The notes beneath the pieces are model-generated. The model saw only the letters and a program-made list of their open reading frames with translations, was not told the origin of the DNA and did not search any database. From Tomitella biformata AHU 1821 (GTDB taxonomy: Bacteria; Actinomycetota; Actinomycetes; Mycobacteriales; Mycobacteriaceae), in contig NZ_BAVQ01000088.1 in NCBI RefSeq assembly GCF_000524475.1, positions 1 to 50,571 of the forward strand: a stretch of 50,571 nt of DNA, given 5' to 3'. The position numbers and the translations under genes were made by a program. This document shows positions 23,597-39,537 of this stretch, one piece after another; position 1 is the first letter of the stretch; each line of letters begins with the position of its first letter.

Positions 23597-23614
23597 GAAT
23601 CCGATGTTAGATTT
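23597..23614. promoter_or_regulatory. Candidate TetR operator, site 2 (tetR autoregulation)
   Basis: GAATCCGA-TG-TTAGATTT, an imperfect copy of GAATCTGA-N2-TCAGATTC, 50 bases before the tetR start codon. It fits autoregulation by the TetR protein encoded next to it. Confidence 0.55.
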
Positions 23615-23663: not shown

Positions 23664-24272
23664 ATGACCGGGCGTCGCACCACGATTCGGGGACGTGAGA
23701 CCAAGGCCGCGTTCGAGGCAGCCGCGCGCAAGGTGATCGCGGAGAAGGGCTTTCTGAATATGACCGTCGCGGACATCGCCCGCGAGAGCGGCCGGTCGGC
23801 GGCGTCGTTCTACAACTACTACGACTCCAAGGAGGACCTCCTGGCGCACTGGGCCGGCGAGTTCCGGGCGGACGCGCGCACCCGCGGCGCCGGGGCCTTC
23901 GAGCGCGGGCTGTCCAACCGGGACCGGGTCTCGCTCGGGGCCCGCGCCCACGTGGAGACTTATCGCGACCACCTGGCCGAGATGGTCGGAGTATTCCAGC
24001 TGGCGATGGTCAACGCGGACTTCGCCAAATACTGGCAGGAGCTGTGCGAGGAGGCGATCTCCGGCATTGCGGCCATGATCACCCGGGCGCAGTCCGATGG
24101 GTTCTGCCCGGGCGTCGACCCGTGGCAGTCGGCGACCGCGATCGTCGCGATGCTCAACCACTACTGCTACGAGCACTACTCAGCCGGAGGCGTGGCGAAC
24201 GGGGTGGGCGACGAAGAGGTGATCGCCACCGTCACGGAGATCTGGTTCCGCGCCGTCTACTGGAAGGTCTGA
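23664..24272 (+). CDS. TetR-family transcriptional regulator
   Basis: A 202-residue TetR protein. The N-terminal domain (about residues 10-60) has the helix-turn-helix M-T-V-A-D-I-A-R-E-S-G-R-S-A-A-S-F-Y-N-Y-Y, and the rest is a helical ligand-binding domain. The open frame starts at 23595, but the ATG at 23664 is 7 bases after AGGAGG and leaves the operator outside the gene. It is divergent from the VOC gene. Sites of one palindromic type occur before this gene, the VOC gene, the alpha/beta hydrolase and the ABC operon, so it probably represses all four units. Its effector may be a pathway intermediate. Confidence 0.88.
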   Translation: MTGRRTTIRGRETKAAFEAAARKVIAEKGFLNMTVADIARESGRSAASFYNYYDSKEDLLAHWAGEFRADARTRGAGAFERGLSNRDRVSLGARAHVETYRDHLAEMVGVFQLAMVNADFAKYWQELCEEAISGIAAMITRAQSDGFCPGVDPWQSATAIVAMLNHYCYEHYSAGGVANGVGDEEVIATVTEIWFRAVYWKV

Positions 24273-24307: not shown

Positions 24308-24325
24308 GAATATGACGTCAGATTC
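24308..24325. promoter_or_regulatory. Candidate TetR operator, site 3 (alpha/beta hydrolase)
   Basis: GAATATGA-CG-TCAGATTC, one mismatch from a perfect 18-bp palindrome, 23 bases before the hydrolase GTG. It is placed where bound protein would block transcription start. Confidence 0.65.
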
Positions 24326-24348: not shown

Positions 24349-25461
24349 GTGGCCATTCAGCGCACCTTCGTAGGCCTGCCCTCGCCAGCTCTGGGACGCG
24401 CCGGTGCCGGCGGCCATCCCTGCCAGGGCGTCTACTACGAGCCGACGGGCAAGAAGCCGAAGGTCGCGGTGATCGCCACGCACTACAATATCGACTTCTC
24501 CGAGCACTACATCGCGACCTACCTGGTCGAGCGCGGCATCGCCTTCCTCGGCTGGAACACCCGCTTCCGCGGCGACGAGGCGCACTTCCTCCTGGACCAC
24601 GCGCTGGTGGACATCGGCGTCGGCGTGCGGTGGCTCAAGGAGGAGGCGGGCGTGGACACCGTCATCCTGCTGGGCAACTCCGGCGGCGGCTCGCTGATGT
24701 CGGCATATCAGTCCCAGGCGCTCGAGCCCAACGTCACGCCCCTGGAGGGCATGCGGCCGGCGAAGGGGCTCGAGGACCTGCTGCCCGGCGACGGCTATAT
24801 CTCCACCGCCGCGCACCTGGGCCGGCCCGACGTGCTGACTGCCTGGAGCGACGGCGCCGTGCTCGACGAGGCGGACCCGTTCGACACCGACCCCACACTG
24901 GACCTGTTCAACCCGGACAATGGCCCGTCCTACGGCGCGGAGTTCCTCGTCCGCTATCGGCAAGCGCAGGTGGACCGCAACCACCGGATCACCCGCTGGG
25001 TCAAGGCCGAGCTGGTGCGGGCGCGCGAGGCGGGACACTACGACCGCTTTTTTGCCTTCAACCGGGCCTGGGCGGACCCGCGCATGGTCGACCCGACGAT
25101 CGAGCCCACCCGCCGCGAGCCGAACCTCTGCTACGCCGGCGTGCCCGAGCGGGCGAACAAGTCGATCTTCAGCATCGCCGGCTCCTGCACCCTGCGGACC
25201 TGGCTGGGGCTGTGGAGCCTCGAGGACTCGCAGACGCGGGCCCTGCCCCACCTGGCGCGCATCACCCAGCCCGCGCTGGTCATCAACGGCGATGCGGACA
25301 CCGGCGTCTTCCCCAGCGACGCGCAAGGTTTCTATGATGGCTTGGCCTCGACAGACAAGGAACTACACGAGGTCCACGCCGACCACTACTTCCTCCTGCC
25401 CGGCGCGCGCGATCTGCAGGCGGACATGATCACGGAGTGGATCGACAAGCGCTTCGGCTGA
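24349..25461 (+). CDS. Alpha/beta-fold hydrolase
   Basis: A 370-residue alpha/beta hydrolase, longer than the simple esterase core. The nucleophile elbow is G-N-S-G-G with Ser111, the acid is likely the aspartate in I-N-G-D-A-D-T-G-V-F, and the base is in H-A-D-H-Y-F near residue 344. T-H-Y-N near residue 44 may form the oxyanion side. A large insert between strands 5 and 8 probably forms a lid. The GTG start at 24349 follows AGGAGA. The D-2-hydroxyacid dehydrogenase gene follows after 35 bases. It does not look like the ring-fission hydrolase HsaD. Ester or C-C bond hydrolysis are both possible. Confidence 0.8.
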   Translation: MAIQRTFVGLPSPALGRAGAGGHPCQGVYYEPTGKKPKVAVIATHYNIDFSEHYIATYLVERGIAFLGWNTRFRGDEAHFLLDHALVDIGVGVRWLKEEAGVDTVILLGNSGGGSLMSAYQSQALEPNVTPLEGMRPAKGLEDLLPGDGYISTAAHLGRPDVLTAWSDGAVLDEADPFDTDPTLDLFNPDNGPSYGAEFLVRYRQAQVDRNHRITRWVKAELVRAREAGHYDRFFAFNRAWADPRMVDPTIEPTRREPNLCYAGVPERANKSIFSIAGSCTLRTWLGLWSLEDSQTRALPHLARITQPALVINGDADTGVFPSDAQGFYDGLASTDKELHEVHADHYFLLPGARDLQADMITEWIDKRFG

Positions 25462-25496: not shown

Positions 25497-26465
25497 ATGG
25501 CAAGCCGCACAGAGAACGACGCTCCCCTGCGCGTCCTCCTGCACTTCGACGCGTCCGAGGCGCTGGCCCAGCGGCTCGCCCCGCGCTGGGCGGGTCTGGA
25601 CGTGCGGCTGTGCGCCGAGAACGACGAGGCGCGGTTCGCGGCGCTGCTGCCCGAGACCGACGTGCTCTGGCATGTGCTGCGGCCGATCACGGCCCGCGAC
25701 ATGTCCCAGGCGTCGAATCTCAAACTGATCCAGAAGCTGGGCTCGGGCGTGAACACCATCGACCTTGAGCACGCGCGGACCAACGGCATCGCGGTCTCCA
25801 ACATGGTGGGAGCTAACGCGCCGGCCGTCGCGGAGTCCGCGCTGGCGCTGATCCTCGCGACGCTGCGCCGCACGGTGGCCCTCGACCGCGCCACGCGGGC
25901 CGGCCGGGGCTGGCCCATCGACACGTCCCTGGCGGAGTCGGTGGGCGAGATTCGCGGCAAGACGGTGGGCCTGCTCGGCCACGGCGTGATCGCCCAGGTG
26001 CTCGAGCGGCCCCTGGTGGCGCTCGGCGCGCGGGTGCTGCACCACACGCGCAGCGGCGACGCGTCGAACCCGGACTGGCGGCCACTCGACGAGCTGCTGG
26101 GGGAGTCCGACATCGGGTCCCTGCACCTGCCACTCACCGACGGCACCACGAACCTCCTGGATGCGCGCCGCCTCGCGCTGCTGCGACCCGGGGCGATCGT
26201 GGTGAACACCGCGCGCGGGGGCATCATCGACGAGCACGCGCTGGCGGCGGCACTGGTCGCGGGCCGCCTCGGCGGCGCCGGGCTGGACACCTTCGAGGAC
26301 GAGCCGATCGGCACCGACAACCCGCTCCTGGACCTGGACTCGGTGGTGCTCTCCCCCCATGTGGCGTGGCTGACGGCGGAGACGATGGAGCGCTGCGTCG
26401 ACCTGGCGGCGGCGAACTGCCACCGGCTGGCAGCGGGCGCGCCGCTCGCCAATCTGATTATTTAG
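25497..26465 (+). CDS. D-2-hydroxyacid dehydrogenase family protein
   Basis: A 322-residue NAD(P)-dependent 2-hydroxyacid dehydrogenase. The Rossmann motif is G-L-L-G-H-G-V-I-A (about residues 158-166, last glycine replaced by alanine). The catalytic residues Arg240 (N-T-A-R-G-G), Glu269 (E-D-E-P) and His288 (S-P-H-V-A-W) are present. H-T-R-S after the second strand lacks the usual aspartate, which hints at NADP use. Start ATG 25497 follows AGGAG. It is co-transcribed with the hydrolase and would interconvert a 2-keto and a D-2-hydroxy acid, which fits with the tartrate dehydratase-like and PanE-like enzymes of the next operon. Confidence 0.85.
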   Translation: MASRTENDAPLRVLLHFDASEALAQRLAPRWAGLDVRLCAENDEARFAALLPETDVLWHVLRPITARDMSQASNLKLIQKLGSGVNTIDLEHARTNGIAVSNMVGANAPAVAESALALILATLRRTVALDRATRAGRGWPIDTSLAESVGEIRGKTVGLLGHGVIAQVLERPLVALGARVLHHTRSGDASNPDWRPLDELLGESDIGSLHLPLTDGTTNLLDARRLALLRPGAIVVNTARGGIIDEHALAAALVAGRLGGAGLDTFEDEPIGTDNPLLDLDSVVLSPHVAWLTAETMERCVDLAAANCHRLAAGAPLANLII

Positions 26466-26524: not shown

Positions 26525-26567
26525 CCGCTCCATTGGTGGGCGGGCTAGTCCCGCGAGGGCGAATTGC

Positions 26568-26597: not shown

Positions 26598-26598
26598 T

Positions 26599-26616
26599 AA
26601 ACCTGAAGTCAGATTC
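26599..26616. promoter_or_regulatory. Candidate TetR operator, site 4 (ABC-importer operon)
   Basis: AAACCTGA-AG-TCAGATTC matches the GAATCTGA-N2-TCAGATTC pattern with an identical right arm and six of eight bases in the left arm. It directly follows the -10 box, a classical repression position. Confidence 0.65.
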
Positions 26617-26656
26617 GTATTAGTGACGCGATGACGCAGACGAGTGGAGACAAGCA

Positions 26657-28177
26657 ATGAGACGATCGAAATTCTTCACCAGGGCAGCCCTCGGGGCCAC
26701 CGCCCTGATCGCGCTGGGCGGCGTCGCCGCCTGCGGCTCGTCGAGCACGGGAGCGAGCGCGGGCAGCCTCACGGCAGGCACCCTGGTCGACGTCCAGAGC
26801 TTCGACCCGGCGGTGAACCCCGGCCAGGGGCAGCGGGTCTTCCTCGACCCGGTGTACGACTCGCTGCTGCGCACCGACAGCGCCGGCGCGGTCATCCCGG
26901 GCCTGGCCACGGATTACACCCTGACGCCCACCGCGATGGAGCTGACGCTGCAGGAGAACCGCACGTTCAGCGATGGCGCGGCGCTCGACGGCGAGGCGGT
27001 CAAGGCCAATATCGAGAACCGCAAGGGCAAGGCCGGCCCCGCCGGCTCCGCGCTGGCCACCGTCACCGATGTCACCGTCACCTCCCCCACCGAGGTGACC
27101 ATCAACCTGAGCGCGCCGTCCCCGGCGCTGCCGATCACGCTGACCGACGTCGCGGGCCTGATGGTCTCCCCCGCCTCGCTCGACGACCCGGACCTCGGCA
27201 CCACGCCCGTCGGCTCCGGACCGTATGTGCTGGACACGGCGTCGTCCAACAATGGCGTCTCCTACGTCTACACGCCGAATGAGAGCTACCCGGACAAGAC
27301 TGACCAGCAGCTCGAGCGCATCGAGATCCGCGTCCTCACCGATGACGCCGCCCGCGCCAGCGCGCTGCGCTCGGGCCAGATCGACCTGGCCCAGATCGCG
27401 AAGAGCCAGATCGACGCAGTCGAGTCCGGCGGCCTCGAGGTCGCCGAGTTCCCCGGCAACCACTGGATGCTCCAGTTCACCGACCTCGACGGGACCAAGT
27501 CCCCGGCCCTGGCCAATGAGAAGATCCGCCAGGCCATCGGCTACGCCATCGACGGCCAGCAGATCGTCGACGCCAACTTCTTCGGCTACGGCACCGCCAC
27601 CCACCAGGTGTTCGACAGCACCAGCCAGTTCCACGTGGAGGGCCTCGAGGGCTCCTACGACTACAACCCGGACAAGGCGCGCCAGCTGGTCGAGGAGTCC
27701 GGCATCGCGAACCCCAGCTTCACGGTCCCCGCGTTCGGGCCCATCAAGCAGGTCACCGAGTCCGTCCAGGGCTTCCTCCGGGAGGTCGGTATCGAGATGA
27801 GTATCGAGCTGGTCCAGCCGGGCACGCTCGATAAGGAGAATCGCGAGACCAACTTCACGGCCATCATCACGCCGATCAAGCAGGTGCACCCGGAGCAGCT
27901 CTACACCGACCGGCTGGCGCCGCAGGGCCCGCAGAACCCGTTCCACGTGGCGCACCCGGACATCGACCAGAAGCACGCGGCGGCACTGGCCGCGGCGGAC
28001 GGCCCCGAGCGTGACGCCGCCTACCAGGACATGCTCGCCGGCGTGAACCAGCAGGCGCTGTGGATCGACGTGCTCACCGACTCCAGCGTCGTAGGCTGGA
28101 ACAAGAATGTCCAGGGCGTCGAGATGACGGTCGGCTGGGTCATGGGGCCCACCTTCCGCGGCGTCAGCGTCAGCTAA
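26657..28177 (+). CDS. ABC transporter substrate-binding lipoprotein (DppA/OppA family)
   Basis: A 506-residue extracytoplasmic binding protein of the SBP_bac_5 (peptide/nickel/opine) family. The signal peptide ends in the lipobox V-A-A-C with Cys26 as the lipid-anchored residue, followed by a Ser/Gly-rich linker. Family marks are the S-F-D-P-A region near residue 46, D-P-V-Y-D-S-L-L, the mature-fold core and R-Q-A-I-G-Y-A-I-D near residue 295. These proteins carry oligopeptides but also sugars, opines and hydroxy acids, so the ligand is not implied. It is the first gene of a long operon, just after the promoter and operator; its stop overlaps the permease start (TAATG). Confidence 0.9.
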   Translation: MRRSKFFTRAALGATALIALGGVAACGSSSTGASAGSLTAGTLVDVQSFDPAVNPGQGQRVFLDPVYDSLLRTDSAGAVIPGLATDYTLTPTAMELTLQENRTFSDGAALDGEAVKANIENRKGKAGPAGSALATVTDVTVTSPTEVTINLSAPSPALPITLTDVAGLMVSPASLDDPDLGTTPVGSGPYVLDTASSNNGVSYVYTPNESYPDKTDQQLERIEIRVLTDDAARASALRSGQIDLAQIAKSQIDAVESGGLEVAEFPGNHWMLQFTDLDGTKSPALANEKIRQAIGYAIDGQQIVDANFFGYGTATHQVFDSTSQFHVEGLEGSYDYNPDKARQLVEESGIANPSFTVPAFGPIKQVTESVQGFLREVGIEMSIELVQPGTLDKENRETNFTAIITPIKQVHPEQLYTDRLAPQGPQNPFHVAHPDIDQKHAAALAAADGPERDAAYQDMLAGVNQQALWIDVLTDSSVVGWNKNVQGVEMTVGWVMGPTFRGVSVS

Positions 28178-29121
28178 TGCTCAAACTACTCGGAACGCGG
28201 ATTGTGGCGCTCGTCCCGATCCTGCTGATGATCAGCATCGTCAGCGTCGCGCTGACCACGTTGATCCCCGGCGATGCTGCCGAGGGCATCGCCGGGGCGT
28301 CGGCCACCCCGGAGCAGATCGCGCAGGTCCGCGCGGAGATGGGCCTGGACCAGGGGCTGGTCACGCAGTACTGGAACTGGCTGACGGACGCGGCGCGCGG
28401 CGACTTTGGCCGCTCGCTGATTGACAAGAGCCAGATCGCGCCGGTGGTCCTCGACAGGCTGTCGGTCACGCTGTCCCTCGCACTGGTGGCGGCGTTGATC
28501 GGGCTGGTCCTCGGCGTCACCGCCGGCACCCTCGCGGCGCTGCGGGCAGGCTCGCTCGCGGACCGCGTGATCACGCTGCTCTCCTCCGTGGCCCTGGCCA
28601 TGCCGGCGTTCTGGCTGGGCCTGATCCTGGTCACGGTGTTCGCACTGAAGCTGGGCTGGTTCCCCGCCACCGGCTATGTGCCCATCACCGACAGCCCCGG
28701 CGAGTGGCTGCGCTCGATCATCCTGCCGGGCTTCGCCCTCGGCCTGGTGGTGACCGCGATGCTGGCCCGGCACGCGCGGGCCTCGATGATCCAGGTCCTC
28801 CAAATGCCGCACATCCGCACCGCCCGGGCCATGGGCCTGCCGGCGCACCGGGTGCTGGGCAAGCACGCGCTCAAGAGCTCCCTGAGCCCGGTGGTGACGA
28901 CGATGGGCTTCCAGTTCGCCTACCTCCTCGGCGGCGCCGTCGTCATCGAGCAGGTCTTCGGCATCCCCGGCATGGGCGATCTGGTCCTGACCGCCGTCAA
29001 CCTGCGGGACATCCCTGTGATCCAGGCGGTCGTGGTTACCACCGGCGTCTGCGTGGCGCTGGCCCAACTCCTCGTCGACATCTCCTATGGCTATCTCAAC
29101 CCGAAGGTGAGGCTGGCATGA
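28177..29121 (+). CDS. ABC transporter permease (DppB type)
   Basis: A 314-residue membrane protein with about six transmembrane segments, the first at residues 7-28. D-F-G-R-S-L follows the periplasmic loop, and the cytoplasmic EAA loop reads R-T-A-R-A-M-G-L-P with downstream H-A-L-K-S-S-L. I-E-Q-V-F-G-I-P-G-M-G-D-L is the conserved DppB ending block. Start ATG 28177 shares a base with the binding-protein stop, and the end overlaps the next gene by ATGA. It forms the channel with the permease half of the following fusion. Confidence 0.93.
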   Translation: MLKLLGTRIVALVPILLMISIVSVALTTLIPGDAAEGIAGASATPEQIAQVRAEMGLDQGLVTQYWNWLTDAARGDFGRSLIDKSQIAPVVLDRLSVTLSLALVAALIGLVLGVTAGTLAALRAGSLADRVITLLSSVALAMPAFWLGLILVTVFALKLGWFPATGYVPITDSPGEWLRSIILPGFALGLVVTAMLARHARASMIQVLQMPHIRTARAMGLPAHRVLGKHALKSSLSPVVTTMGFQFAYLLGGAVVIEQVFGIPGMGDLVLTAVNLRDIPVIQAVVVTTGVCVALAQLLVDISYGYLNPKVRLA

Positions 29122-31118
29122 GCACCGCACTGGGCTCGAACGCGCGGAAGATCCCCGGCCCCTCCCCCGTCAAGACCGGACCGGGGAAGCCAGCCAACCT
29201 GCCCAAGGCCCCGCCGAAGGGTCGATGGGGCAAGGTGCGCCACCGCGTGCTGCGGGACCCCGTCGCCGTTGCGGCGCTCGCCTTCCTCCTGATCATCGTG
29301 GTGTGCGCGATCTTCCCCGGCGTCATCGCGCCGATGGACCCGCTGGCCACAAACCTGCCGAACGCGCTGCAGGGCCCGTCCGGCGAGCACCTGCTGGGCA
29401 CCGACCACCTCGGCCGGGATGTCCTCTCACGCTTGATCTTCGCCAGCCGCATCGCGGTGCTTGCCTCGCTGGAGGCCGCCGGGATCGCGATGCTCATCGG
29501 CATCCCCGTGGGCCTGGTGATCGGCTTTGTCGGCGGGTGGCTGGACAACATCGTGATGCGCATCGTCGACGGCTTCACAGCGCTGCCCGGGCTGATTGTC
29601 GCGATCGCCGTGATCGCGGCCCTCGGGCCCGGCATCCACAACGCCATGTTCGCTGTGGGCCTGGTCTTCTCCACCACCTTCGTCCGCGTCACCCGCGGCG
29701 AGGTGCTCACCGCCCGCCGACAGCAATACGTCGAGGCGGCCGAGGTGATCGGCTCCAAGACCCCGTCGATCCTGGTGCGGCACATCCTGCCGAACATCGT
29801 GGGCCCCATCGCAGTCCAACTCTCCCTGACGCTGGCCGCTGCGCTGCTGGTCGAGGCCGCGCTGTCCTTCCTGGGCCTGTCCGCACAGCCGCCCGACGCC
29901 AGCTGGGGCGTGATGGTCTCGGAGGCCGGCACCCTGATCGGGCGCGACCCCTTCCTGATCTTCCCGCCGGGCATCGCGATCGGCCTGACGGTGCTAAGCC
30001 TGAATGTGCTGGCCGACACGGTGCTGGGCGCGCTGCGCGACGAGCCGATCCACAAGCGCCGCAAGAAGATCCAGCCAGCGGCCCCGGTCGCCATCGAGGT
30101 GACGGCCCGCGACCGCGAGGCTGCGCCAGCCCCCACCCTGCCCACCCCCACTCTTGAGGTCCCCACCTTCGAGATCAGGGGCCTGGACGTGGCGGTCGAG
30201 CGGGACGGACGCACCGTCCCCGTGCTCGAGGACGTGTCCCTGCACGTGCAGCCGGGCGAGACCCTCGGCCTGGTCGGCGAGTCCGGCTCCGGCAAGACCA
30301 TGACGGCGCTCGCCGCGATGGGACTGCTGCCCGGCACCGCCCACATCACCGCCGGCTCGGTACACCTGGACGGCAAGCCCATCTCCGGCCTGGCGACGGC
30401 GGAGCTGAACAAATTTCGCGGCCGCGAGATGGCGATGATCTTCCAGGAGCCCAGCTCCGCGCTGGACCCCGCCTTCACCGTGGGCAACCAGATCATCGAG
30501 GTCCTGCGCCACCACCTGGGCCTGGACAAGAAGACGGCCGTGGAGAAGGCCGAGCACCTGCTCGAGCGCGTCGGCATCCGCGACCCCAAGGCGCGCATGC
30601 GCAGCTACCCGCACGAGCTGTCCGGCGGCATGGCGCAGCGCGTGATGATCGCGCTGGCCATCAGCTGCGACCCCAAACTGCTCATCGCGGACGAGCCGAC
30701 CACGGCCCTCGACGTGACGCTGAAGGTGCAGATCGCGGACCTGCTCGCCGACATCCAGCGCGAGCGCGGCATGTCCATGATCTTCGTGACCCACGAGCTC
30801 GGCATGGTCGCCGAGGTCGCGGACCGGGTCGCCGTGATGTACGCAGGCCAGGTCGTGGAGGAGCAGCCGATCGACGAGCTGATGGGCAACCCCCGCCACC
30901 CGTACACCGCGGCACTGCTCGCCTCCAGCGCCCAGGGCATGCCCCGCGGCCAGGAGCTCTCGATCATCCGCGGCACCGTCCCCTCCCCAGGCCAGCGCCC
31001 CACGGGCTGCTACTTCGCTCCGCGCTGCGATTTCGCCACCGCGGAGTGCGAGAGCGGCGTCCCCGCCATCACCGGGACGGCCGAGCACTCCGTCCGCTGC
31101 CTGCACCCGATCCGCTGA
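29118..31118 (+). CDS. Fused ABC transporter permease-ATPase (DppC-DppD)
   Basis: A 666-residue fusion of two normally separate subunits. Residues ~45-310 are a DppC-type permease (L-L-G-T-D-H-L-G-R-D-V-L-S-R-L, EAA loop with Y-V-E-A-A-E-V-I-G). A Pro/Ala-rich linker lies at ~320-350, and residues ~355-620 are an ATPase: Walker A G-E-S-G-S-G-K-T near 387, signature L-S-G-G-M-A-Q-R near 501, Walker B L-I-A-D-E-P-T-T-A-L-D near 521. The end has the oligopeptide-type cysteine region C-Y-F-A-P-R-C. It overlaps the permease gene upstream and lies 13 bases before the second ATPase. Such fusions occur in actinobacteria. Confidence 0.93.
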   Translation: MSTALGSNARKIPGPSPVKTGPGKPANLPKAPPKGRWGKVRHRVLRDPVAVAALAFLLIIVVCAIFPGVIAPMDPLATNLPNALQGPSGEHLLGTDHLGRDVLSRLIFASRIAVLASLEAAGIAMLIGIPVGLVIGFVGGWLDNIVMRIVDGFTALPGLIVAIAVIAALGPGIHNAMFAVGLVFSTTFVRVTRGEVLTARRQQYVEAAEVIGSKTPSILVRHILPNIVGPIAVQLSLTLAAALLVEAALSFLGLSAQPPDASWGVMVSEAGTLIGRDPFLIFPPGIAIGLTVLSLNVLADTVLGALRDEPIHKRRKKIQPAAPVAIEVTARDREAAPAPTLPTPTLEVPTFEIRGLDVAVERDGRTVPVLEDVSLHVQPGETLGLVGESGSGKTMTALAAMGLLPGTAHITAGSVHLDGKPISGLATAELNKFRGREMAMIFQEPSSALDPAFTVGNQIIEVLRHHLGLDKKTAVEKAEHLLERVGIRDPKARMRSYPHELSGGMAQRVMIALAISCDPKLLIADEPTTALDVTLKVQIADLLADIQRERGMSMIFVTHELGMVAEVADRVAVMYAGQVVEEQPIDELMGNPRHPYTAALLASSAQGMPRGQELSIIRGTVPSPGQRPTGCYFAPRCDFATAECESGVPAITGTAEHSVRCLHPIR

Positions 31119-31131
31119 GGAAGGAAGAGAC

Positions 31132-31971
31132 ATGTCCGCACTGCTGCAGATTGAGAACCTCCGCGTCACCTTCAAGAGCTCAGGACTGTTCCGCAAGACG
31201 GCCCCGTTCGTGGCCGTCGACGATGTGAGCCTGCGCATCGAGCCGGGCCAGACGCTGGGCCTCGTCGGCGAGTCCGGCTCCGGCAAGACGACGGTGGCCC
31301 GCTCGGTCCTGCGCCTGGTGCGCCCCGAGTCTGGCAGTATCAAGTTCCAGGGCACGGAGGTGACGGAGTTCGGCCGCGTGCCCAAGTGGTACCGCAGCAA
31401 GGTCCAGGCGATCTTCCAGGACCCCACGGCCAGCCTGAACCCGTCGTGGACGGTCCGCGACATCGTGGCCGAGCCACTGCGGGTGCACGAGGCCAAGATG
31501 AACTCGGGCGCCATCGAGGCCCGGGTGGCCGAGCTGCTGCAGCTGGTGGGCTTGGACCCGGCGCTGGACCACCAGCGCCCGGCGGCCTTCTCCGGCGGTC
31601 AGCGCCAGCGCATCGGCATCGCCCGGGCCCTGGCCACTGAGCCGGAGCTGATCGTGTGCGACGAGCCGGTGAGCGCCCTCGACGTGTCCACCCAGTCCAC
31701 CATCGTCAACCTGCTCAACCGCGTCCAGCGCGAGACCGGGGTGGCGTACCTGTTCATCGGCCACGACCTCGGGCTGATGCGACACATGAGCGACCGCCTC
31801 GCGGTGATGTACCACGGCAAGCTCGTCGAGGAGGGCCCCGCCGAGCAGGTCTATCAGGACCCGCAGAACGACTACACGCGGCTGCTCCTCGACGCCGCCC
31901 CCAGCTATGACCCCGCCGAGCAGCGACGCAAGCGCGAGATCCGCCGCGCGCTCGCCGCCACGGCGAACTAA
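31132..31971 (+). CDS. ABC transporter ATP-binding protein (DppF type)
   Basis: A 279-residue second ATPase of the importer. Walker A G-E-S-G-S-G-K-T is near residue 46, followed by the Q-loop A-I-F-Q-D-P-T, signature F-S-G-G-Q-R-Q-R near 155, Walker B L-I-V-C-D-E-P-V-S-A-L-D, and H-loop I-G-H-D-L-G. The ATG follows GGAAGGAAG. With the fusion's ATPase half it gives the heterodimeric motor expected for Dpp/Opp systems, so the importer is complete. Confidence 0.93.
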   Translation: MSALLQIENLRVTFKSSGLFRKTAPFVAVDDVSLRIEPGQTLGLVGESGSGKTTVARSVLRLVRPESGSIKFQGTEVTEFGRVPKWYRSKVQAIFQDPTASLNPSWTVRDIVAEPLRVHEAKMNSGAIEARVAELLQLVGLDPALDHQRPAAFSGGQRQRIGIARALATEPELIVCDEPVSALDVSTQSTIVNLLNRVQRETGVAYLFIGHDLGLMRHMSDRLAVMYHGKLVEEGPAEQVYQDPQNDYTRLLLDAAPSYDPAEQRRKREIRRALAATAN

Positions 31972-31991
31972 CCCTCACGAAAGGCAGTCAC

Positions 31992-33554
31992 ATGCTCTCC
32001 TGGGCACATCTCCTGCGCTGGCGCGCCGAGCGGCACCCCGATTTGCTGGCGCTGGCCGACGACCGCGGCCAGCAGCTGACGTACCGCGAGCTGCACGAGG
32101 AGGTCGAGCGCCTCGCCGGCGGCTGGGCCGCGCAGGGCGTGGGGCCCGGCGACGTCGTCGCGATCCTCGCGCGCAACCGCGTCGACTGGATCTCCCACAT
32201 GTATGCGCTCAACCGCGCCGGCGCCATCGCCGCGGCCGTGAACTGGCGGTTGGCACCGCCGGAGCTCGCCGCGCTGCTCGACGTGATGCGGCCCGCCGCC
32301 GTCCTCGCTGACGCCGAGAACCTGGCCCTGCTCAACGCCGCCGCCCCCGGCCTGCCCCGCGTGGTGCTGCGGGCCGCGGGCACCGACGGCCTGATCTCCG
32401 GCCGCGCGTCCGATGATTTCCACGGCCCGGTCCCCGCATGGCCTGCCGGTTCGATGGCGGGCAATAAGCCCTTCGTCCTGCTGCACACCAGCGGCACCAC
32501 CGGCGCGGTGCCCAAGCTCGTCGCCATCTCCAACGCCCGTCTCGTCGCCAGTGGCACCTACCTCAAGCTGGTGGTCCCGGAGGCGCAGGAGGGTGCGCGG
32601 CACCTGCGGGCGATGCCGCTGTTCCACATGGCCGGGCTCGCCAACGTCACCTATCCGCTATTCACCGGCGGCACCACCTACATCCAATCCGCTTTCCGCC
32701 CAAAGGAATTCGTGGACGCGATCGTGGACAAGCAGATCAACTTCACCAACCTCGTGCCCAGCGCCATCGCGATGGTCGTCGAGGAGCTCCGCGGCCGCGA
32801 GACCCCGGCGGACCTGTCCTCGCTGGTGGAGATCGGCTACGGCGCGTCGTCCATCTCCCCGGAGGCTCTGCGCGCGGCCATCGAGGCTCTGGGCTGCCGC
32901 TTCCGCCAGAACTACGGCTCCACCGAGACCGGCGGCTTCCCCATCACCACGCTCGACCCCGCGGACCAGTACCCGGAGTCCCCGCACCTGAACACCGCCG
33001 GCAAGGCCGCCCTGAACTGGGAGGTCCGCATTGTCGACGACAATCTCGAGGACGTGCCCGACGGGGAGCCAGGCGAGCTGATCGTCCGCGGGTCCGAGCC
33101 GTTCGACGGCTACTGGAACAACCCCGCGGAGACGGCGGCGGCCATCGACAAGGACGGCTTCTGGCACATCGGCGACATCGCCGTCCGCGACGCCGACGGC
33201 TACATCACCATCGTCGACCGCAAGAAGGACATGATCGTCTCCGGCGGCGAGAACGTGTACCCGGCCGAGGTCGAGGCTGCGCTGCACCGTCACCCGGACG
33301 TCGCGGAGGCCTCCGTCATCGGCATCCCAGACCCGCGCTGGGGCGAGTCCGTGCACGCGGTCCTGGTGCTGAGGGTGGGCGGGGCTGAGAGCGCCGACGC
33401 CATCAAGGAGTGGAGCCGCGGCCAACTAGCCGGGTTCAAGTGCCCCACCACCGTCGAGTTCCTGGACGAGCTGCCGCGCAACGCCACCGGCAAGATCCTC
33501 AAGCGCACCCTGCGGGAGAAGTTCTGGGCCGACGAGACGCGGGCCGTGTCATGA
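31992..33554 (+). CDS. Acyl-CoA synthetase (AMP-forming, class I adenylate-forming)
   Basis: A 520-residue ANL-superfamily ligase that activates a carboxylic acid via acyl-AMP to acyl-CoA. The P-loop motif is H-T-S-G-T-T-G near residue 166. Y-G-S-T-E-T-G-G is the A5 motif, and I-G-D-I-A-V-R-D-A-D-G-Y plus D-R-K-K-D-M-I-V-S-G-G-E-N-V-Y-P are the hinge region. The catalytic lysine lies in R-N-A-T-G-K-I-L near the end. It lies 20 bases after the ATPase gene and overlaps the sulfatase by ATGA. In this operon it probably activates the imported acid or a breakdown product; chain type cannot be read from the sequence. Confidence 0.9.
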   Translation: MLSWAHLLRWRAERHPDLLALADDRGQQLTYRELHEEVERLAGGWAAQGVGPGDVVAILARNRVDWISHMYALNRAGAIAAAVNWRLAPPELAALLDVMRPAAVLADAENLALLNAAAPGLPRVVLRAAGTDGLISGRASDDFHGPVPAWPAGSMAGNKPFVLLHTSGTTGAVPKLVAISNARLVASGTYLKLVVPEAQEGARHLRAMPLFHMAGLANVTYPLFTGGTTYIQSAFRPKEFVDAIVDKQINFTNLVPSAIAMVVEELRGRETPADLSSLVEIGYGASSISPEALRAAIEALGCRFRQNYGSTETGGFPITTLDPADQYPESPHLNTAGKAALNWEVRIVDDNLEDVPDGEPGELIVRGSEPFDGYWNNPAETAAAIDKDGFWHIGDIAVRDADGYITIVDRKKDMIVSGGENVYPAEVEAALHRHPDVAEASVIGIPDPRWGESVHAVLVLRVGGAESADAIKEWSRGQLAGFKCPTTVEFLDELPRNATGKILKRTLREKFWADETRAVS

Positions 33555-35107
33555 CCCAGCCGAATGTCGTCCTGATCATGGCGGACCAGCTGCGCGCCGA
33601 CCATCTGGGCTTCGGAGGCAACACCGTGGTCCGCACCCCGAATCTGGACTCGATCGCGGAACGCGGTGCCCGTTTCGACCGCGCCTATGTGGCGAACCCG
33701 GTGTGTATGCCGAACCGGTCGAGCCTGCTCACCTCGCGGGTGCCCTCAGCCCATGGCACCCGTTATAACGGGATCGCTCTGGACCCGGATGCCAACACGT
33801 TCGTGCGGGCACTGCGCGACGAGGGCTACCGCACGATGCTCGTCGGTAAGGCGCATTTCCAGAACATCGGCCACCAGCCGGAGTTCGCGGCGAAGATGAC
33901 CGCCGACCAGCCCCCGAAGCCCGGCGAGGACCGCCGCCGCGAGGACGGCTGGGATAAGTGGGAGGACATCGAGCGCCACCGCGCGGGCTGGGTCGAGATG
34001 CCCGCCGACTACTACGGTTTCAGCCACACCGAGCTCGCCATCGACCACTCCGACTACTGCGGCGGGCACTATGAGCACTGGCTGTGGGAGCAGGGTTTCG
34101 ACCTGGGCCGCCGCGGCCTGGAACACGCCCGGGACACCGCCACGGACTGGGGGCAGATCTACCAGCCGGACATGCCCGCCGAGGTGTACCCGACTGCCTG
34201 GGTGGGGGCCCGCAGCGCGGCGCTGATCACCGAGGCGGCGCAGGCCGGCGAGCCGTTCTTCCTGCAATGCTCCTTTCCTGACCCGCACCACCCCTTCACC
34301 CCGCCCGGCGATTACTATTCGATGTACGACCCCGCGGACATCGAGCTGCCCGCCACCTTCCACGACCCCCACGAGACGTCGATGCCCCGGATGCGGGCCC
34401 TGCTCCGGCGGCGCGGGGAGCAGGTCGGCGGCGAGATGGCGCCGTTCTCCCCCTCCGAGGAGCAGTACCGGGAGGCGGCGGCCAAGGAGTACGGGGCCAT
34501 CAGCTTCATCGACGACGCGGTCGGGAAAGTCCTTGCCGCGCTGGCGGATAACGACCTGATGGAGAACACGATCGTGATCATCACCAGTGATCACGGCGAC
34601 ATGTTCGGCGACCACGGGATGATGCTCAAGCTCGGCATGCACTACGAGGGCTGTGTGCGGGTGCCGTTGGTCATCGCCGGGCCGGGCATTGAGGCCAGTG
34701 CCAGCGAATCGTTCGCCTCCTCCCTGGACGTGGGCCCTACGGTGCTGGACCTGGCGGGCGTCGAGGGCTACCGGGGCATGCAGGGCGCCAGCCTGCGCGG
34801 CGTGCTCGCGGACCCCGGCGCTACAGTGCGCCAGGCGGTGTACATCGAGGAGGACCAGATGTTCGACGCCTGCCGCGCCGGCCGGCCCCTCCAGATCCGC
34901 ACCGCGATCACCGACCGCGGCCGCATCAGCGTCTTCCACGGCCTGGCGGACGGCGAGCTCTACGACCACGTGGCAGACCCCCTCGAGCTCGAGAACCGTT
35001 GGCACGACGCCGATCACACGCAGTTCAAGGTCGAGATGCTCACCCAGCTGATGCAGTCCCAGTTGGACCACACGGACACCACCCTGCGGCCGACGGCGAT
35101 GGCATGA
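33551..35107 (+). CDS. Cys-type sulfatase (alkaline phosphatase superfamily)
   Basis: A 518-residue sulfatase. The active-site motif C-M-P-N-R starts at Cys52, the residue a formylglycine-generating enzyme would oxidise; no such enzyme is encoded nearby. Metal ligands are expected at Asp12 (M-A-D-Q) and in [10 protein letters not shown] near residue 346. No signal peptide is present, so it acts in the cytoplasm on an imported sulfate ester. It could also be a phosphonate or phosphate esterase of the superfamily. ATG 33551 overlaps the acyl-CoA synthetase stop, and the end overlaps the next gene by ATGA, so all three are tightly coupled. Confidence 0.88.
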
Positions 35108-36522
35108 CGGGGTCCGGCCGCACGCTGGCGCACAAGGTGTGGGACGCCCACGTCGCCGTGCCGGGCGCCGGCGGCGAGCCGGACCTGCTGTACGTGGACC
35201 TGCACCTGCTGCACGAGGTCACCTCCCCGCAGGCCTTCGACGGCCTGCGGGCGGCGGGCCGGCCGGTGCGCCGCCCGGACCTCACGGTGGCGACCGAGGA
35301 CCATAACGTGCCCACACACAGCCTGACCTGGCCCGTCGCCGACCCGGAGAGCCGTGCGCAGCTCAGCGCGCTGCGCGCGAACTGCGCGGAATTCGGTGTG
35401 CCCTGCCACTCGATGGGGCAGGCCGGGCAGGGCATTGTGCACGTGATCGGGCCGGAGCAGGGGCTGAGCCAGCCCGGCATGACCATCGTCTGCGGCGACT
35501 CGCACACTTCCACCCACGGGGCGTTCGGGGCGCTGGCCATCGGCATCGGCAGCAGCGAGGTGGAGCACGTGCTGGCCACCCAGACCCTGCGGCTGGCGCG
35601 GCCCCGGGGCCTGGCCGTCACCGTCAGCGGGGAGCTGCCCGACGGCGCCACCGCGAAGGACCTCGCGCTGGCTGTCATCCGCCAGCTCGGCACCAACGGG
35701 GCCAGCGGCCACATCATCGAGTACCGGGGCTCGGCGATCGCCGCCCTCTCGATGGAGAGCCGAATGACGCTGTGCAACATGAGTATTGAGATGGGAGCCC
35801 GGGCCGGCATGATCGCGCCGGATCAGCGCACCCTCGACTATCTGCGCGGGCGCCCGCACGCCCCGGCCGGCGCGGACTGGGCGGACGCCGTCGAGCAATG
35901 GGCGGCGCTGCGCACGGATCCCGGGGCCCGCTTCGACCGCGAGATCAATCTGGACGCGGCCACCGTCGCCCCGTTCATGTCCTGGGGCACGACCCCGGAC
36001 CAGGTGGCCCCCGTGGACGGCGCCGTGCCGGATCCGAGCCTGATCGCCGACGCGGGCGAGCGGGCGCGGATGGCCGCGGCGCTGGACTATATGGGCTTGG
36101 CGGCGGGCACGCCGATGCGCTCCGTCACCGTCGACACTGTGTTCATCGGCTCCTGCACCAACGGGCGCATCGAGGATCTGCGGGCGGCCGCGGAGGTCCT
36201 GCGGGGCCGCCGGGTCGCCGCAGGCGTGCGGGCGCTGGTGGTGCCCGGCTCCATGGCGGTGCGCAAGCAGGCCGAGCGGGAGGGGCTGGACCAGGTGTTC
36301 ACCGCCGCCGGCTTCGAATGGCGGCTGCCCGGCTGCTCGATGTGCACCGGCATGAACCCGGATCGGCTGGGCCGCGGCGAGCGCAGCGCGTCCACGACCA
36401 ATCGCAACTTCGAGGGTCGCCAGGGCGCGGGCGGGCGCACGCACCTGGTCTCGCCGCCGGTGGCCGCGGCGACCGCGGTGCGCGGGGCCTTCGCCACGCC
36501 GGCCGATCTGGGCCGGCCATGA
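35104..36522 (+). CDS. 3-isopropylmalate dehydratase large subunit-like (LeuC/aconitase family)
   Basis: A 472-residue aconitase-family large subunit of full LeuC length. The 4Fe-4S ligands are the cysteine in F-I-G-S-C-T-N-G-R (about residue 347) and the pair in L-P-G-C-S-M-C (about residues 410 and 413). T-E-D-H-N-V-P-T and [12 protein letters not shown] are also typical. It would hydrate or dehydrate a hydroxy-diacid. No LeuD-type small subunit gene follows, although the family normally needs one; a 13-codon ORF overlaps its stop instead. It is probably not the leucine-pathway enzyme but a catabolic hydratase such as for a substituted malate. Confidence 0.85.
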
Positions 36523-36560
36523 CAATGAATCTGGCCGTGACAACGAAAGTGGAGAAATAG
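36519..36560 (+). CDS. Possible 13-codon ORF coupling leuC-like and enolase-superfamily genes
   Basis: ATG at 36519 overlaps the leuC-like stop (ATGA), and the stop TAG shares a base with the next gene's GTG. The peptide [13 protein letters not shown] has no domain. It fills exactly the position where a leuD small subunit would be expected. It may be a coupling device or the relic of a deleted gene; expression is unproven. Confidence 0.3.
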
Positions 36561-37726
36561 TGAGGATCACCGAAATCCGCGAGGTTGCCGGCCCGCTGGC
36601 CGGGGCGATCTCGAACGCGGTCGTGAGCTTCGACCAGCACAAGGTCTCCCTCGTGGCGATCTTCACCGATGTGGTGCGAGATGGCCGGCCACTGGTGGGC
36701 GTCGCGTTCAACTCGATCGGCCGGCACTCCCAGGGCGGGATCCTGCGGGAGCGGATGATCCCCCGCATCCTGGAAGCGGATCCCGACTCCCTGCTTTCCC
36801 CGGAGACGGGTCTGCTGGACCCGGCGCGGGTCCTCGCCTGCGCGCTCACCGACGAGAAGCCCGGCGGCCACGGTGACCGGGCTGCCGCGGCCAGTGCGAT
36901 CGAGTTGGCCTGCTGGGACCTGCTTGCCAAGTATGGCGACGAGCCTGCCTACGCGACCATCGCCCGCGCCCATGGGCGCGAGCCGGTCTCTGGGGGCGTT
37001 CCGGTCTACGCGGCCGGCGGCTATTACCGCGACGGCGATGACCTCGGTCTGCTGCGCGCCGAGATCGGCGACTTCCTCGACGCCGGCTACTCCGCCGTGA
37101 AGATCAAGATCGGCGGCAAGACCTTGGCGGAGGACATGCTCCGCATCGAGGCGGCGATCGACGTCGCGGGGTCCGGACGCCATCTGGCGGTCGACGCCAA
37201 CGGCCGCTTCGACCGTGCCCAGGCCCTGGCCTATGCGGAGGCGATGGCGTCGTACGGGCTGCGCTGGTACGAGGAGCCCGTGGACCCGCTCGACTACGCC
37301 CTGCACCGCGACCTCGGCGAGATGTACCCCGGCGTGCTCGCGACCGGGGAGAACCTCTTCTCACGTCAGGATGTGGAGAATATGCTCCGCTTCGGCGGCC
37401 TGCGCCCGGACCGCGACATCTTGCAGATGGACGCGGGCCTGAGCTATGGGCTCACCGAGTACGTCAAGATGATCGCGCTGATGGAAGAGCACGGCTTCGA
37501 CCGCACCGCCGCGATGCCGCACGGAGGCCACCTGCTCAACCTGCACATAGTCGTCGGCCTCGGGCTCGGCGGCTGCGAGGCCTACCCCGGTGTGTTCCAG
37601 CCGTTCGGCGGGTACAGCCCGGACTGCGCGATCGGCGAGGGGACGGTCAGCCCGGCGGAGCATCCCGGCTTCGGGCTGGAGGCCAAGGATAACCTCGCCG
37701 CCGAGATCTCGAGGCTGGTCGCTTGA
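36560..37726 (+). CDS. D(-)-tartrate dehydratase-like enolase-superfamily enzyme
   Basis: A 388-residue enolase-superfamily (mandelate racemase subgroup) dehydratase, closely resembling the characterised D-tartrate dehydratase of Bradyrhizobium in length and motifs. The catalytic K-I-K motif gives Lys183, Mg ligands are Asp212, Glu238 and Glu264, and His321 in P-H-G-G-H is the second acid/base. N-E-K-P-G-G-H-G-like sequence (D-E-K-P-G-G-H-G, residues 98-105) is also shared. It should remove water from a 2,3-dihydroxy acid to give a 2-keto acid. Start is GTG 36560. Its product could feed the PanE-like or D-2-hydroxyacid dehydrogenase enzymes. A related substrate with a side chain is possible. 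Confidence 0.85.
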   Translation: MRITEIREVAGPLAGAISNAVVSFDQHKVSLVAIFTDVVRDGRPLVGVAFNSIGRHSQGGILRERMIPRILEADPDSLLSPETGLLDPARVLACALTDEKPGGHGDRAAAASAIELACWDLLAKYGDEPAYATIARAHGREPVSGGVPVYAAGGYYRDGDDLGLLRAEIGDFLDAGYSAVKIKIGGKTLAEDMLRIEAAIDVAGSGRHLAVDANGRFDRAQALAYAEAMASYGLRWYEEPVDPLDYALHRDLGEMYPGVLATGENLFSRQDVENMLRFGGLRPDRDILQMDAGLSYGLTEYVKMIALMEEHGFDRTAAMPHGGHLLNLHIVVGLGLGGCEAYPGVFQPFGGYSPDCAIGEGTVSPAEHPGFGLEAKDNLAAEISRLVA

Positions 37727-37737
37727 GCTCGATAGGC

Positions 37738-38670
37738 ATGAGCCCGATACTGCGGATCGCCGTTGTCGGCTGCGGCGCGATGGGCTCGGTGTATGCCGGC
37801 CGGCTCTCGGCCGCGGGACACATCGTGCTTGTCGTCGACTCCTGGGCCGATCACATGCGGGCCATCGCCCTCTCGGGCCTGAGAGTCGAGGGGCCCGACG
37901 GCACCCTGCTCGCGTCGGTGCGCGCCTTTGAGACGCCGCCCGACGAGGAGGTTGATCTCGTCATCCTCGCCGTCAAGGCCGCCGCGGTGCCCGAGGCCGC
38001 CGCCTCCATCGGCGGGCTGCTCGGCGCGGACACCGTCGTGCTCACCATCCAGAACGGTCTTGGATCGGCGGACGAGGTCGCGAGCAGGGTGGGCGCGGAC
38101 CGGCTCGCCGTCGGCATCGCCAGCGGCTTCGGCGCGGCTCTGCGCGGCCCCGGCCAGGTGCACCACAACGCGATGCGGGCCCTGCGCTTCGGCGCGTATT
38201 CAGATCTCGATCCGGCCGCGGTGGAGCGGGTCGCCGCGGCCTGGCGGGCCGGCGGGTTTGACTGCCAGGCTGTCGACGACATCGCGGCGATGCAGTGGGA
38301 GAAACTGATCTGCAACGCCGCCTACAGCGCCCCATGCGCGCTGACCGGACTCACTGTCGGGGAGGTGCTTTCGCATCCGCAGATGGGCCCGGTGAGCGTG
38401 GCGGCCGGGATCGAGGCCTGGCGGACGGCGACGGCACTTGGCATCGCGATCGACGTGGCGGATCCGGCGGCACTGGTCCGTGAGTTCGGGGCGCAGATGC
38501 CTGCGGCCAAGCCCTCCGCGCTACTGGATCACGAGGCGGGGCGAGTGAGCGAGATCGCCGTCATCAACGGTGCCGTGCCTCGTGCGGCGGCTCGGGTGGG
38601 CCTCGACGTCCCAGTGAACGCCACGCTCACCGCGCTGGCACTGGCCAGGGAGGAGGGGTTCCGGCGCTGA
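37738..38670 (+). CDS. 2-dehydropantoate 2-reductase-like (PanE family) oxidoreductase
   Basis: A 310-residue PanE-family NADP-dependent reductase. G-C-G-A-M-G is the cofactor motif near residue 10, I-Q-N-G-L-G gives the conserved asparagine, W-E-K-L-I-C-N-A the catalytic lysine, and S-E-I-A-V-I-N-G the conserved glutamate. I took ATG 37738; a TTG at 37723 overlapping the previous stop and preceded by GAGG is an alternative giving five more residues. In a catabolic operon it more likely reduces or oxidises a branched 2-keto/2-hydroxy acid than makes pantoate. Confidence 0.85.
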   Translation: MSPILRIAVVGCGAMGSVYAGRLSAAGHIVLVVDSWADHMRAIALSGLRVEGPDGTLLASVRAFETPPDEEVDLVILAVKAAAVPEAAASIGGLLGADTVVLTIQNGLGSADEVASRVGADRLAVGIASGFGAALRGPGQVHHNAMRALRFGAYSDLDPAAVERVAAAWRAGGFDCQAVDDIAAMQWEKLICNAAYSAPCALTGLTVGEVLSHPQMGPVSVAAGIEAWRTATALGIAIDVADPAALVREFGAQMPAAKPSALLDHEAGRVSEIAVINGAVPRAAARVGLDVPVNATLTALALAREEGFRR

Positions 38671-38724
38671 CCGGATCCGGATGAGCTGCGGGTTCACGGC
38701 CATCTATTGAAAGTTACCGTGTCA

Positions 38725-39537
38725 ATGAGTCACACTTACCTGATGCAGCTGGCACATGACATTCGCGGCGAAGGCCCTCCCCTGCTCCTCGTGCACGGCG
38801 TCGTCCATCGCCGCCACGCCTGGGACCCGGTGCTCGACCTGCTCACCCCGCATCGACGGGTGATCACCGTCGACCTGCCCGGCCACGGTGACTCCCCCGA
38901 GATGCCCGCCGGTGCGGATCCCCTGCGTATCGGCCTCGACCTGATGGCGGAGTTCCTCGAGCAGGTCGCGCCCGGCGAGAAGGCGCACGTCGCGGGCAAC
39001 TCGCTCGGCGGCTGGTTCGCCCTCGAGGCGGCCGCCGAGGGCCTGGTCGCGTCGGCCACCGCCATCTCGCCCGCGGGCTTCTTCAGCAACTCCCTGGACC
39101 AGGCGCGGGCGGTCAACACCTTCCGTACGCTGCGCTGGGCCACCCGGAGGCTCGGCGGCAAACGTGACGTGTTGCTGGAGAGCGCCGTCGGCCGCAGCGT
39201 CGGCCTGGGCGTGTTCCTGGCCAAGCCGTGGCGGACCCCCGTGGAGATCGCGAAGATCGACGCCGCCGCGCTGCTGACGAACACGGTGATCGACCGCGGC
39301 CTGAGCGCCGACTTCTCCTTCACGCCGCAGGTAGACCCCGCGATCCCCATCACCGTCGCCTGGGGCCGACGGGATCTGGTGTTGCCAGCCTGGGAGGCGC
39401 GCGGCGTGCGGCGCGTCTTCCCGCAGGCGGAGGTCACCGTCTACCCCGGCCTGGGGCATGTGCCGATGTACGACGATCCCCGCCTCGTCGCGCAGATCCT
39501 GCTCGACGGCAGCGCGAGGGCGGGCGTGCCAAGCTGA
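38725..39537 (+). CDS. Alpha/beta-fold hydrolase
   Basis: A 270-residue alpha/beta hydrolase: oxyanion H-G-V-V-H, nucleophile Ser93 in G-N-S-L-G-G, acid in G-R-R-D-L-V and base in G-L-G-H-V-P. The size and pattern match the esterase/C-C hydrolase group, but its N-terminus is not that of HsaD. The frame opens with a TTG at 38707; ATG 38725 is more likely, though neither has a good ribosome site. It follows the PanE-like gene by 54 bases, so it could be the last operon gene or separately transcribed. A long palindromic hairpin follows. Confidence 0.8.
   Translation: MSHTYLMQLAHDIRGEGPPLLLVHGVVHRRHAWDPVLDLLTPHRRVITVDLPGHGDSPEMPAGADPLRIGLDLMAEFLEQVAPGEKAHVAGNSLGGWFALEAAAEGLVASATAISPAGFFSNSLDQARAVNTFRTLRWATRRLGGKRDVLLESAVGRSVGLGVFLAKPWRTPVEIAKIDAAALLTNTVIDRGLSADFSFTPQVDPAIPITVAWGRRDLVLPAWEARGVRRVFPQAEVTVYPGLGHVPMYDDPRLVAQILLDGSARAGVPS

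Follow-up and report, generated by a model that had tools for sequence, protein, structure and literature searches.

The genome of Tomitella biformata AHU 1821 carries, on contig NZ_BAVQ01000088.1, a group of genes that probably constitutes a conserved, co-regulated catabolic set spanning positions 22898-39537 of the 50,571-nucleotide stretch analysed here (the window). Two of its enzymes, a dehydratase of the enolase superfamily (the MR/MLE enzyme) and a LeuC protein, come from dedicated, uncharacterised lineages, as judged from sequence trees and group-specific residues. Tentatively, we propose that the set is controlled by a TetR-family regulator and serves the breakdown of an imported sulfated and/or esterified compound bearing a substituted 2,3-dihydroxy-diacid, that is, a substituted tartrate. 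An earlier note on this DNA had placed a single catabolic unit at 26657..39537. The co-conservation of the genes bears this out, but the interval was too small: the upstream region at 22898-26465 belongs to the same system as the importer-to-PanE genes and has the operator-like site in common with them. Because its genes recur together in other genomes, the cluster goes beyond a chance arrangement. No description of this gene set was found in open-access papers, in a search that used partly loose matching and is weak evidence of absence.

All the genes named in the earlier note are present, in order, on the + strand and tightly packed. Ten open reading frames (ORFs) recognised with Pfam and NCBIfam encode, successively, a solute-binding protein (SBP_bac_5), a DppB permease, an OppC-ATPase fusion, a DppF ATPase, a coenzyme A (CoA) ligase, a sulfatase, LeuC, the MR_MLE_C enzyme, PanE and an alpha/beta hydrolase (abH2). 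With the start codons chosen here, the gaps from the importer to abH2 are -1, -4, 13, 20, -4, -4, 37, 11 and 72 bases; the last shrinks to 54, the maximum claimed earlier, if abH2 starts at 38725. Upstream on the same strand lie genes for the TetR regulator, another alpha/beta hydrolase (abH1) and a 2-hydroxyacid dehydrogenase, with that for a VOC protein on the opposite strand (Table 1).

The MR/MLE enzyme has TarD, the D-tartrate dehydratase, and 4kem as its nearest solved relatives (49-50% identity). Its catalytic residues Lys183/Asp212/Glu238/Glu264/His321, all present as the earlier note had read them, align with those of Bradyrhizobium TarD (Bll6730; PDB 2dw6, 2dw7, 1tzz; 49% identity), Lys183 with a residue that is Ala in 2dw6, and are kept in 21/21 rows of the enzyme's own set and 68/68 other rows of the alignment. 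In a tree of 46 rows, in which most of the other group was sampled at every third row, the PanE-linked sequences and two Burkholderiales plasmid copies without PanE make up one side of a 100/99 branch, and TarD and 4kem lie opposite. Positions 13, 22, 27, 53, 98, 106, 108, 115, 116, 293, 325 and 339 are fixed in 21/21 and differ in at least 75% of the 68 others, some of which belong with the window enzyme's group. At five of these, I53, H27, L325, C339 and D98 (21/21 each) stand against N (62/68), M (64/68), Q (63/68), N (51/68) and N (60/68), respectively, so that amide side chains at 53, 325 and 339 are replaced by Ile, Leu and Cys. Residues 27 and 53 fall where we would expect the substrate-capping loops of the enolase superfamily. 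The residues typical of TarD are thus missing from the likely specificity positions, a role assigned to them by position, which suggests a substrate other than D-tartrate and less polar. A plain TarD identity was rejected on the separate clade and these fixed changes, and the enzyme, which unlike TarD is usually paired with PanE, belongs to a well-supported, uncharacterised sister subfamily outside the TarD clade; "D-tartrate dehydratase-like", as it was first called, holds for the catalytic residues only.

Two further plasmid relatives, outside the tree, lie among TRAP-transporter/fumarase and acid-sugar-kinase genes. A copy of the window subfamily on a Comamonas endophytica plasmid (L023) is downstream of a tripartite-tricarboxylate binding protein. 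Some 12 kb off are three more genes: one of the aconitase family, one annotated as 3-isopropylmalate dehydratase and one of the isocitrate lyase/phosphoenolpyruvate mutase family.

What would a LeuC do without LeuD? The cluster LeuC is 67% identical to the cell's housekeeping LeuC, exceeds the leuC cut-off (Table 1) and keeps the GSCTNG and CSMC motifs, with cysteines C351, C411 and C414, which we take to be the iron-sulfur (Fe-S) ligands. The cluster LeuCs group together across a 95/95 branch in an unrooted 25-row tree, and 22 positions are group-specific (in at least 7/8 versus 15/16), including T415 beside the Fe-S cysteines. By these measures it is a true LeuC paralogue in a dedicated clade. 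The earlier note's hydratase without LeuD is correct in that no LeuD adjoins it; by PF00694, however, there is no second stand-alone LeuD either, the sole one in the Tomitella genome being on a different contig, next to the housekeeping leuC. Of 16 genomes chosen by hand, 8 carry the cluster LeuC, and each of these repeats the arrangement: it has two LeuC in all and a single stand-alone LeuD, which adjoins the housekeeping copy. (Stand-alone LeuD here means an open frame of <300 aa; the remaining PF00694 matches are in frames of at least 660 aa.) Because these genomes show one stand-alone LeuD by PF00694, the simplest reading is that the cluster LeuC likely shares the cell's LeuD; alternatively, it may act alone or be inactive. 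Plant isopropylmalate isomerase, with one large and three small subunits, is the mirror case (PMC3946710).

Beside the cluster LeuC, no LeuD match was found in the window or the searched cluster stretches, save for a different pair in Gordonia hankookensis (L045:19351-21146). This pair consists of an aconitase-family protein, about 32% identical to LeuC and 8-10 kb from MR/MLE-PanE, and a small ORF without a Pfam match that looks by eye like a LeuD-type subunit. Searching the cluster stretches with the cell's own LeuD and this Gordonia ORF gave nothing further.

Of the remaining enzymes, the PanE protein exceeds the cut-off of the PanE/ApbA ketopantoate reductase family. The sulfatase has the CMPNR (Cys type) and GKAHF motifs and no signal peptide that could be seen by eye, in keeping with the cytoplasmic Cys-type sulfatase first described; its closest solved relative is PDB 4upi. 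Three FGE-family matches above cut-off in the Tomitella genome, together with the CxPxR motif, place it among the type I Cys sulfatases. It resembles the arylsulfatases, the choline-sulfatases and 4upi in its motifs, its PF00884 domain and the FGE-family genes in the genome, but differs in falling below the named-subfamily cut-offs (arylsulfatase 254 versus 481 bits, choline-sulfatase 229 versus 433 bits) and in being set beside a CoA ligase and LeuC. Similarly, the importer is like the Dpp/Opp/Nik-type ABC importers in having an SBP_bac_5 protein, two permeases and two ATPases, but its second permease and first ATPase are fused and it is below the listed equivalog cut-offs. The fusion is a single ORF, and its matches in L126, L127 and L128 (the loci of genomes G394, G458 and G420, respectively) cover 96-101% of the length. 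Four PDB entries match the CoA ligase at 1e-60 or better; 8weu (fatty-acyl-CoA synthase) and 8wev (feruloyl-CoA synthetase) come first.

How far does the set recur? All counts given here refer to samples of genomes and are not exhaustive. The sulfatase was matched in 4 of 151 same-family genomes, Tomitella itself included. In the other three, G394, G458 and G420, the genes for importer, CoA ligase and sulfatase occur as a group, 60-81% identical to those of the window, and have VOC, TetR and abH1 next to them. Downstream of this block, G394 and G458 have LeuC; G394 and G420 carry the MR/MLE enzyme and PanE. The cluster stretches retrieved for G420 yielded no LeuC, and the second LeuC of that genome is at another place, next to a LeuD-type match of its own. 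Another five genomes (G526, G423, G588, G555 and G537) have LeuC, the MR/MLE enzyme, PanE, VOC, TetR and abH1 together with two other CoA ligases. Within 20-kb stretches, the window-type importer and sulfatase were not found in these five; one has a partial branched-chain-amino-acid-type permease at the edge of its stretch. Thus, the check for co-conservation, which the earlier note had proposed and which was run here on a genome sample, found the genes co-conserved. The importer and sulfatase, counted there as parts of the unit, are present in the window but look accessory to the core set, because neither was found in the 20-kb stretches of five related clusters.

The MR/MLE-PanE pair with VOC, TetR and abH1 is more widespread than the importer-CoA ligase-sulfatase block. 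Among 98 loci scanned, 86 have a match of at least 330 columns, and in 20 of these the MR/MLE enzyme is immediately upstream of PanE (L045 and L169 in this count are apparently one genome). In a set of 251 family genomes, an MR/MLE enzyme of at least 63% identity occurs in 14 and an abH1 of at least 55% in 34; 14/14 of the former carry such an abH1 (p 4.5e-14, uncorrected for relatedness), on a separate contig in G179, G205, G240 and G322. The 2-hydroxyacid dehydrogenase adjoins abH1 in L171, L174 and L175 and is also present in L127. Nocardioides daejeonensis (L044, Nocardioidaceae) has, downstream of MR/MLE-PanE, genes for CoA ligases, a Dpp-type importer and a distantly related sulfatase (29%, CMPAR). 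At 1e-100, the sulfatase was found in 6 of 394 class genomes including its own, the other five at 41-46%. As a class-wide anchor it was discarded: three of the five distant stretches (one of 7 kb) gave weak ABC ATPase matches and no core gene.

Some neighbourhoods deserve mention in their own right. In G458, an APH-type protein and then an enolase paralogue (L127:2073-3359) lie downstream of abH1, where other clusters hold the MR/MLE enzyme. The paralogue is above the eno cut-off. Aligned with 4yws, it shows Ala in place of the His of S-H-R-S-G-E and Asp in place of the Glu of Q-E-F-M, presumably catalytic residues of enolase; it may have been repurposed. In G205, G240 and G322 (L027-L029), MR/MLE-PanE is near an acyl-CoA dehydrogenase, and the L027 stretch, with genes for MaoC, acyl-CoA dehydrogenase, a RipC/CitE-like protein and biotin-carboxylase/carboxyl-transferase, resembles a leucine-degradation locus. 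In a gammaproteobacterial metagenome-assembled genome, a DUF3604 protein (L050:12084-13796) separates PanE and abH1.

The cluster is probably under TetR control via operator-like sites. A palindrome near GAATCTGA-N2 to N8-TCAGATTC occurs in three gaps: between VOC and TetR, before abH1 and before the importer. Across the window, a 14-base search that tolerated up to 3 mismatches found 5 matches, every one in those three gaps, two being both strands of one site. The 4.7-Mb genome contains the strict pattern CTGAN{2,8}TCAGATTC at 4 sites, of which 2 are in the window cluster, against 0 for a backwards control, and the pattern is absent from 52 comparison loci (935,521 bases, mostly other genera). 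In its 18-bp form, the palindrome is upstream of the importer in 4/4 same-family clusters with 1-2 mismatches, in hand-chosen stretches; L044 has a strict-pattern site upstream of its binding-protein gene that fits the 18-bp form poorly (4 mismatches). The further pattern sites in the genome are at G000:C107:47730, near FMN (flavin mononucleotide) oxidoreductase, MFS and SDR genes and about 6 kb from a PF03328 gene, and at G000:C108:76719.

The VOC protein and abH1 are harder to place. VOC relatives near abH1 homologues are 64-80% identical in most loci, 54-55% in three and 30% in two. H15, H98 and E159 are, we assume, candidate metal ligands. Three of the four clusters with importer and sulfatase, those of the window, G394 and G420, have Asn instead of the His of the presumed extradiol ring-cleaving dioxygenase signature, so that the window protein does not match this signature in full. 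VOC matches to solved proteins are weak and mixed. For abH1, ester cleavage is suggested by the Ser/Asp/His residues (S111/D317/H346), invariant across 5 sequences; a PDB sequence search gave weak, mostly C-terminal lipase matches. Predicted structures were too poor to use, with a mean predicted local distance difference test score (pLDDT) of 53.6 for abH1 (5 sequences) and 48.9 for VOC (3 sequences). Paralogues of abH1 (61-63%) are found beside other Dpp-type importers and CoA ligases in L176, L177 and L178. At L208/L209, a distant abH1 homologue is directly downstream of an annotated homogentisate 1,2-dioxygenase near styrene genes in Rhodococcus oxybenzonivorans, and a VOC gene is upstream of one in Diaphorobacter.

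A pathway can be drawn up for the proposed substituted tartrate, each step assigned from protein families. The Dpp-type importer would take up the compound, the sulfatase would strip the sulfate and abH1 would split the ester, with the CoA ligase activating either the acid so freed or an intermediate further along. The MR/MLE enzyme would abstract the proton beside a carboxylate and expel the neighbouring hydroxyl, giving a 3-substituted oxaloacetate, which PanE (or the 2-hydroxyacid dehydrogenase) would reduce to a 3-substituted malate. LeuC with a borrowed LeuD would then shift the hydroxyl to yield a 2-substituted malate, to be activated with CoA and cleaved by a lyase encoded elsewhere; the net chemistry would be that of leucine biosynthesis in reverse. 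Plants make substituted tartrates, such as piscidic acid, fukiic acid and isobutyltartrate esters. That such compounds, with or without sulfate, are degraded by actinobacteria through this reversed route, with a 2-alkyl- or 2-aryl-tartrate dehydratase as a new activity of the enolase superfamily, a PanE-type reductase and a catabolic LeuC sharing LeuD, is a more specific proposal and a rather doubtful one. For its end step there is a parallel in Rv2498c of M. tuberculosis, a citramalyl-CoA/HMG-CoA (3-hydroxy-3-methylglutaryl-CoA) lyase that cleaves citramalyl-CoA, a substituted malyl-CoA (PMC6689899), but the window cluster has no such gene. Related clusters do offer a RipC/CitE-like protein (L027) and an HpaI/GarL-like protein (L127), both below cut-offs, which we count in favour of the substituted-tartrate proposal.

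Several observations weigh against that proposal. The cluster lacks a lyase, and none of the five PF03328 genes elsewhere in the genome is tied to it. The CoA ligase, the sulfatase and the binding protein score below every curated cut-off listed. G458 has LeuC, sulfatase and importer, yet no MR/MLE match at 1e-60 genome-wide; the Gordonia clusters lack a window-type LeuC; the MR/MLE-PanE pair also occurs far from abH1 (L027-L031); and just 17 of 345 sampled class genomes have the MR/MLE enzyme at all. A divergent small subunit could escape PF00694, which missed the LeuD-looking Gordonia ORF. Of 47 VOC rows, some of them overlapping copies of one place, 14 match the presumed extradiol signature in full and a further 19 retain its His; the model makes no use of this ring-cleavage-like signature. 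For the operator, the excess of the motif in the window is modest (5 versus 1.22 expected; 2/100 shuffles reach 5), the strict pattern is in just 13 of 34 related stretches, and the other two genomic strict sites, one adjoining the FMN oxidoreductase gene and the other inside a DUF1707 ORF, are not at obvious pathway genes.

Could the substrate be a phenolic ester of ordinary tartrate, of the caftaric or chicoric acid type and possibly phenol-sulfated? The hydroxycinnamate would be freed by a hydrolase and CoA-activated, tartrate would go to oxaloacetate, and LeuC and PanE would have side jobs. The TarD-like catalytic residues and 49% identity fit this, as do the feruloyl-CoA synthetase among the CoA ligase matches and a tannase/feruloyl-esterase-family match (3.4e-14) downstream of MR/MLE-PanE in Blastococcus (L043). 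It is nevertheless unlikely, given that the MR/MLE enzyme is outside the TarD clade with fixed polar-to-nonpolar changes and that plain tartrate leaves a dedicated LeuC clade jobless. Equally unlikely, in our estimate, is that the genes form separate modules (VOC-TetR-abH1-2-hydroxyacid dehydrogenase, importer-CoA ligase-sulfatase and LeuC-MR/MLE-PanE) with a common neighbourhood, and perhaps regulator, and no single linear pathway. VOC-TetR-abH1 does occur without MR/MLE-PanE in L170, L171 and L174, and the latter without a nearby abH1 in L027-L031, but overlapping genes, the common operator-like site and repeated association speak for a unit.

An aromatic compound, cleaved by VOC as a one-domain ring-cleaving dioxygenase and then by abH1 as a C-C hydrolase of the ring-fission product, with the other genes processing diacid pieces, is distinctly improbable: the VOC rows with the signature and the abH1 homologue following homogentisate 1,2-dioxygenase favour it, but the signature is a presumed one, its His is Asn in the window, G394 and G420, and the matches to solved VOC proteins are weak and mixed. 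Slightly less probable again is an acid-sugar derivative, from which the MR/MLE enzyme would make a 2-keto-3-deoxy acid for an HpaI/GarL-type aldolase. Many MR/MLE relatives are acid-sugar dehydratases and L127 has its HpaI/GarL-like protein between sulfatase and LeuC, but that protein scores 138 against a cut-off of 369, its genome is the one without an MR/MLE match at 1e-60, and LeuC and CoA ligase fit poorly. Finally, the cluster LeuC could be a redundant gene of leucine biosynthesis that was trapped in the operon, in keeping with its closeness to the housekeeping LeuC and its score above the leuC cut-off; with its own clade in 8 genomes and its group-differing positions, T415 among them, this is very improbable.

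The features of the set are listed in Table 1. Neither abH2 nor the adjoining amidohydrolase and choloylglycine-hydrolase-family genes have counterparts near the related clusters compared, and a hint of bile acids from the latter two was dropped on that account.

Table 1. Features of the proposed catabolic set, with positions in the window.
Feature	Position	Strand	Evidence
VOC (glyoxalase-superfamily) protein, 189 aa	22898..23467	-	PF00903 1.7e-17
Operator-like palindrome AATCTGATACTAACATCAGATTC, VOC/TetR gap	23521..23543	.	motif search
Second operator-like half site, one mismatch	23597..23610	-	motif search
TetR-family regulator; alternative GTG start 23658	23664..24272	+	PF00440 3.5e-13; relatives adjoin abH1
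Operator-like palindrome GAATATGACGTCAGATTC, upstream of abH1	24308..24325	.	motif search
abH1, alpha/beta hydrolase; candidate triad S111/D317/H346	24349..25461	+	weak Pfam matches, invariant residues, distribution
D-2-hydroxyacid dehydrogenase family protein	25497..26465	+	PF02826 3.7e-47
Operator-like palindrome AAACCTGAAGTCAGATTC, upstream of importer genes	26599..26616	.	counterparts in L126, L127, L128
Solute-binding protein, SBP_bac_5; N-terminus lipobox-like by eye	26657..28177	+	PF00496 2.1e-52
DppB-type permease	28177..29121	+	PF00528 2e-39
OppC-type permease + ABC ATPase fusion, 666 aa	29118..31118	+	PF12911, PF00528, PF00005, PF08352 in one ORF
DppF/OppF-type ATPase	31132..31971	+	PF00005 7.5e-33
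AMP-forming CoA ligase	31992..33554	+	PF00501 1.1e-71
Cys-type sulfatase, apparently cytoplasmic	33551..35107	+	PF00884 3.7e-49; CMPNR, GKAHF
Lone LeuC paralogue	35104..36522	+	TIGR00170 700 bits vs cut-off 560
Enolase-superfamily (MR/MLE) dehydratase	36560..37726	+	structure-relative alignment, tree
PanE/ApbA-family reductase; alternative TTG start 37723	37738..38670	+	TIGR00745 210 bits vs cut-off 141
abH2, second alpha/beta hydrolase	38743..39537	+	PF12697 2.8e-22; no counterpart in compared loci

The cluster provides a testable setting for an uncharacterised sister subfamily of TarD and for a LeuC lineage without a LeuD of its own, and the operator-like site offers a direct handle for mapping the regulon and finding the inducer. 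If the cluster LeuC does share the cell's LeuD, a single subunit would take part in both biosynthesis and catabolism within one cell.

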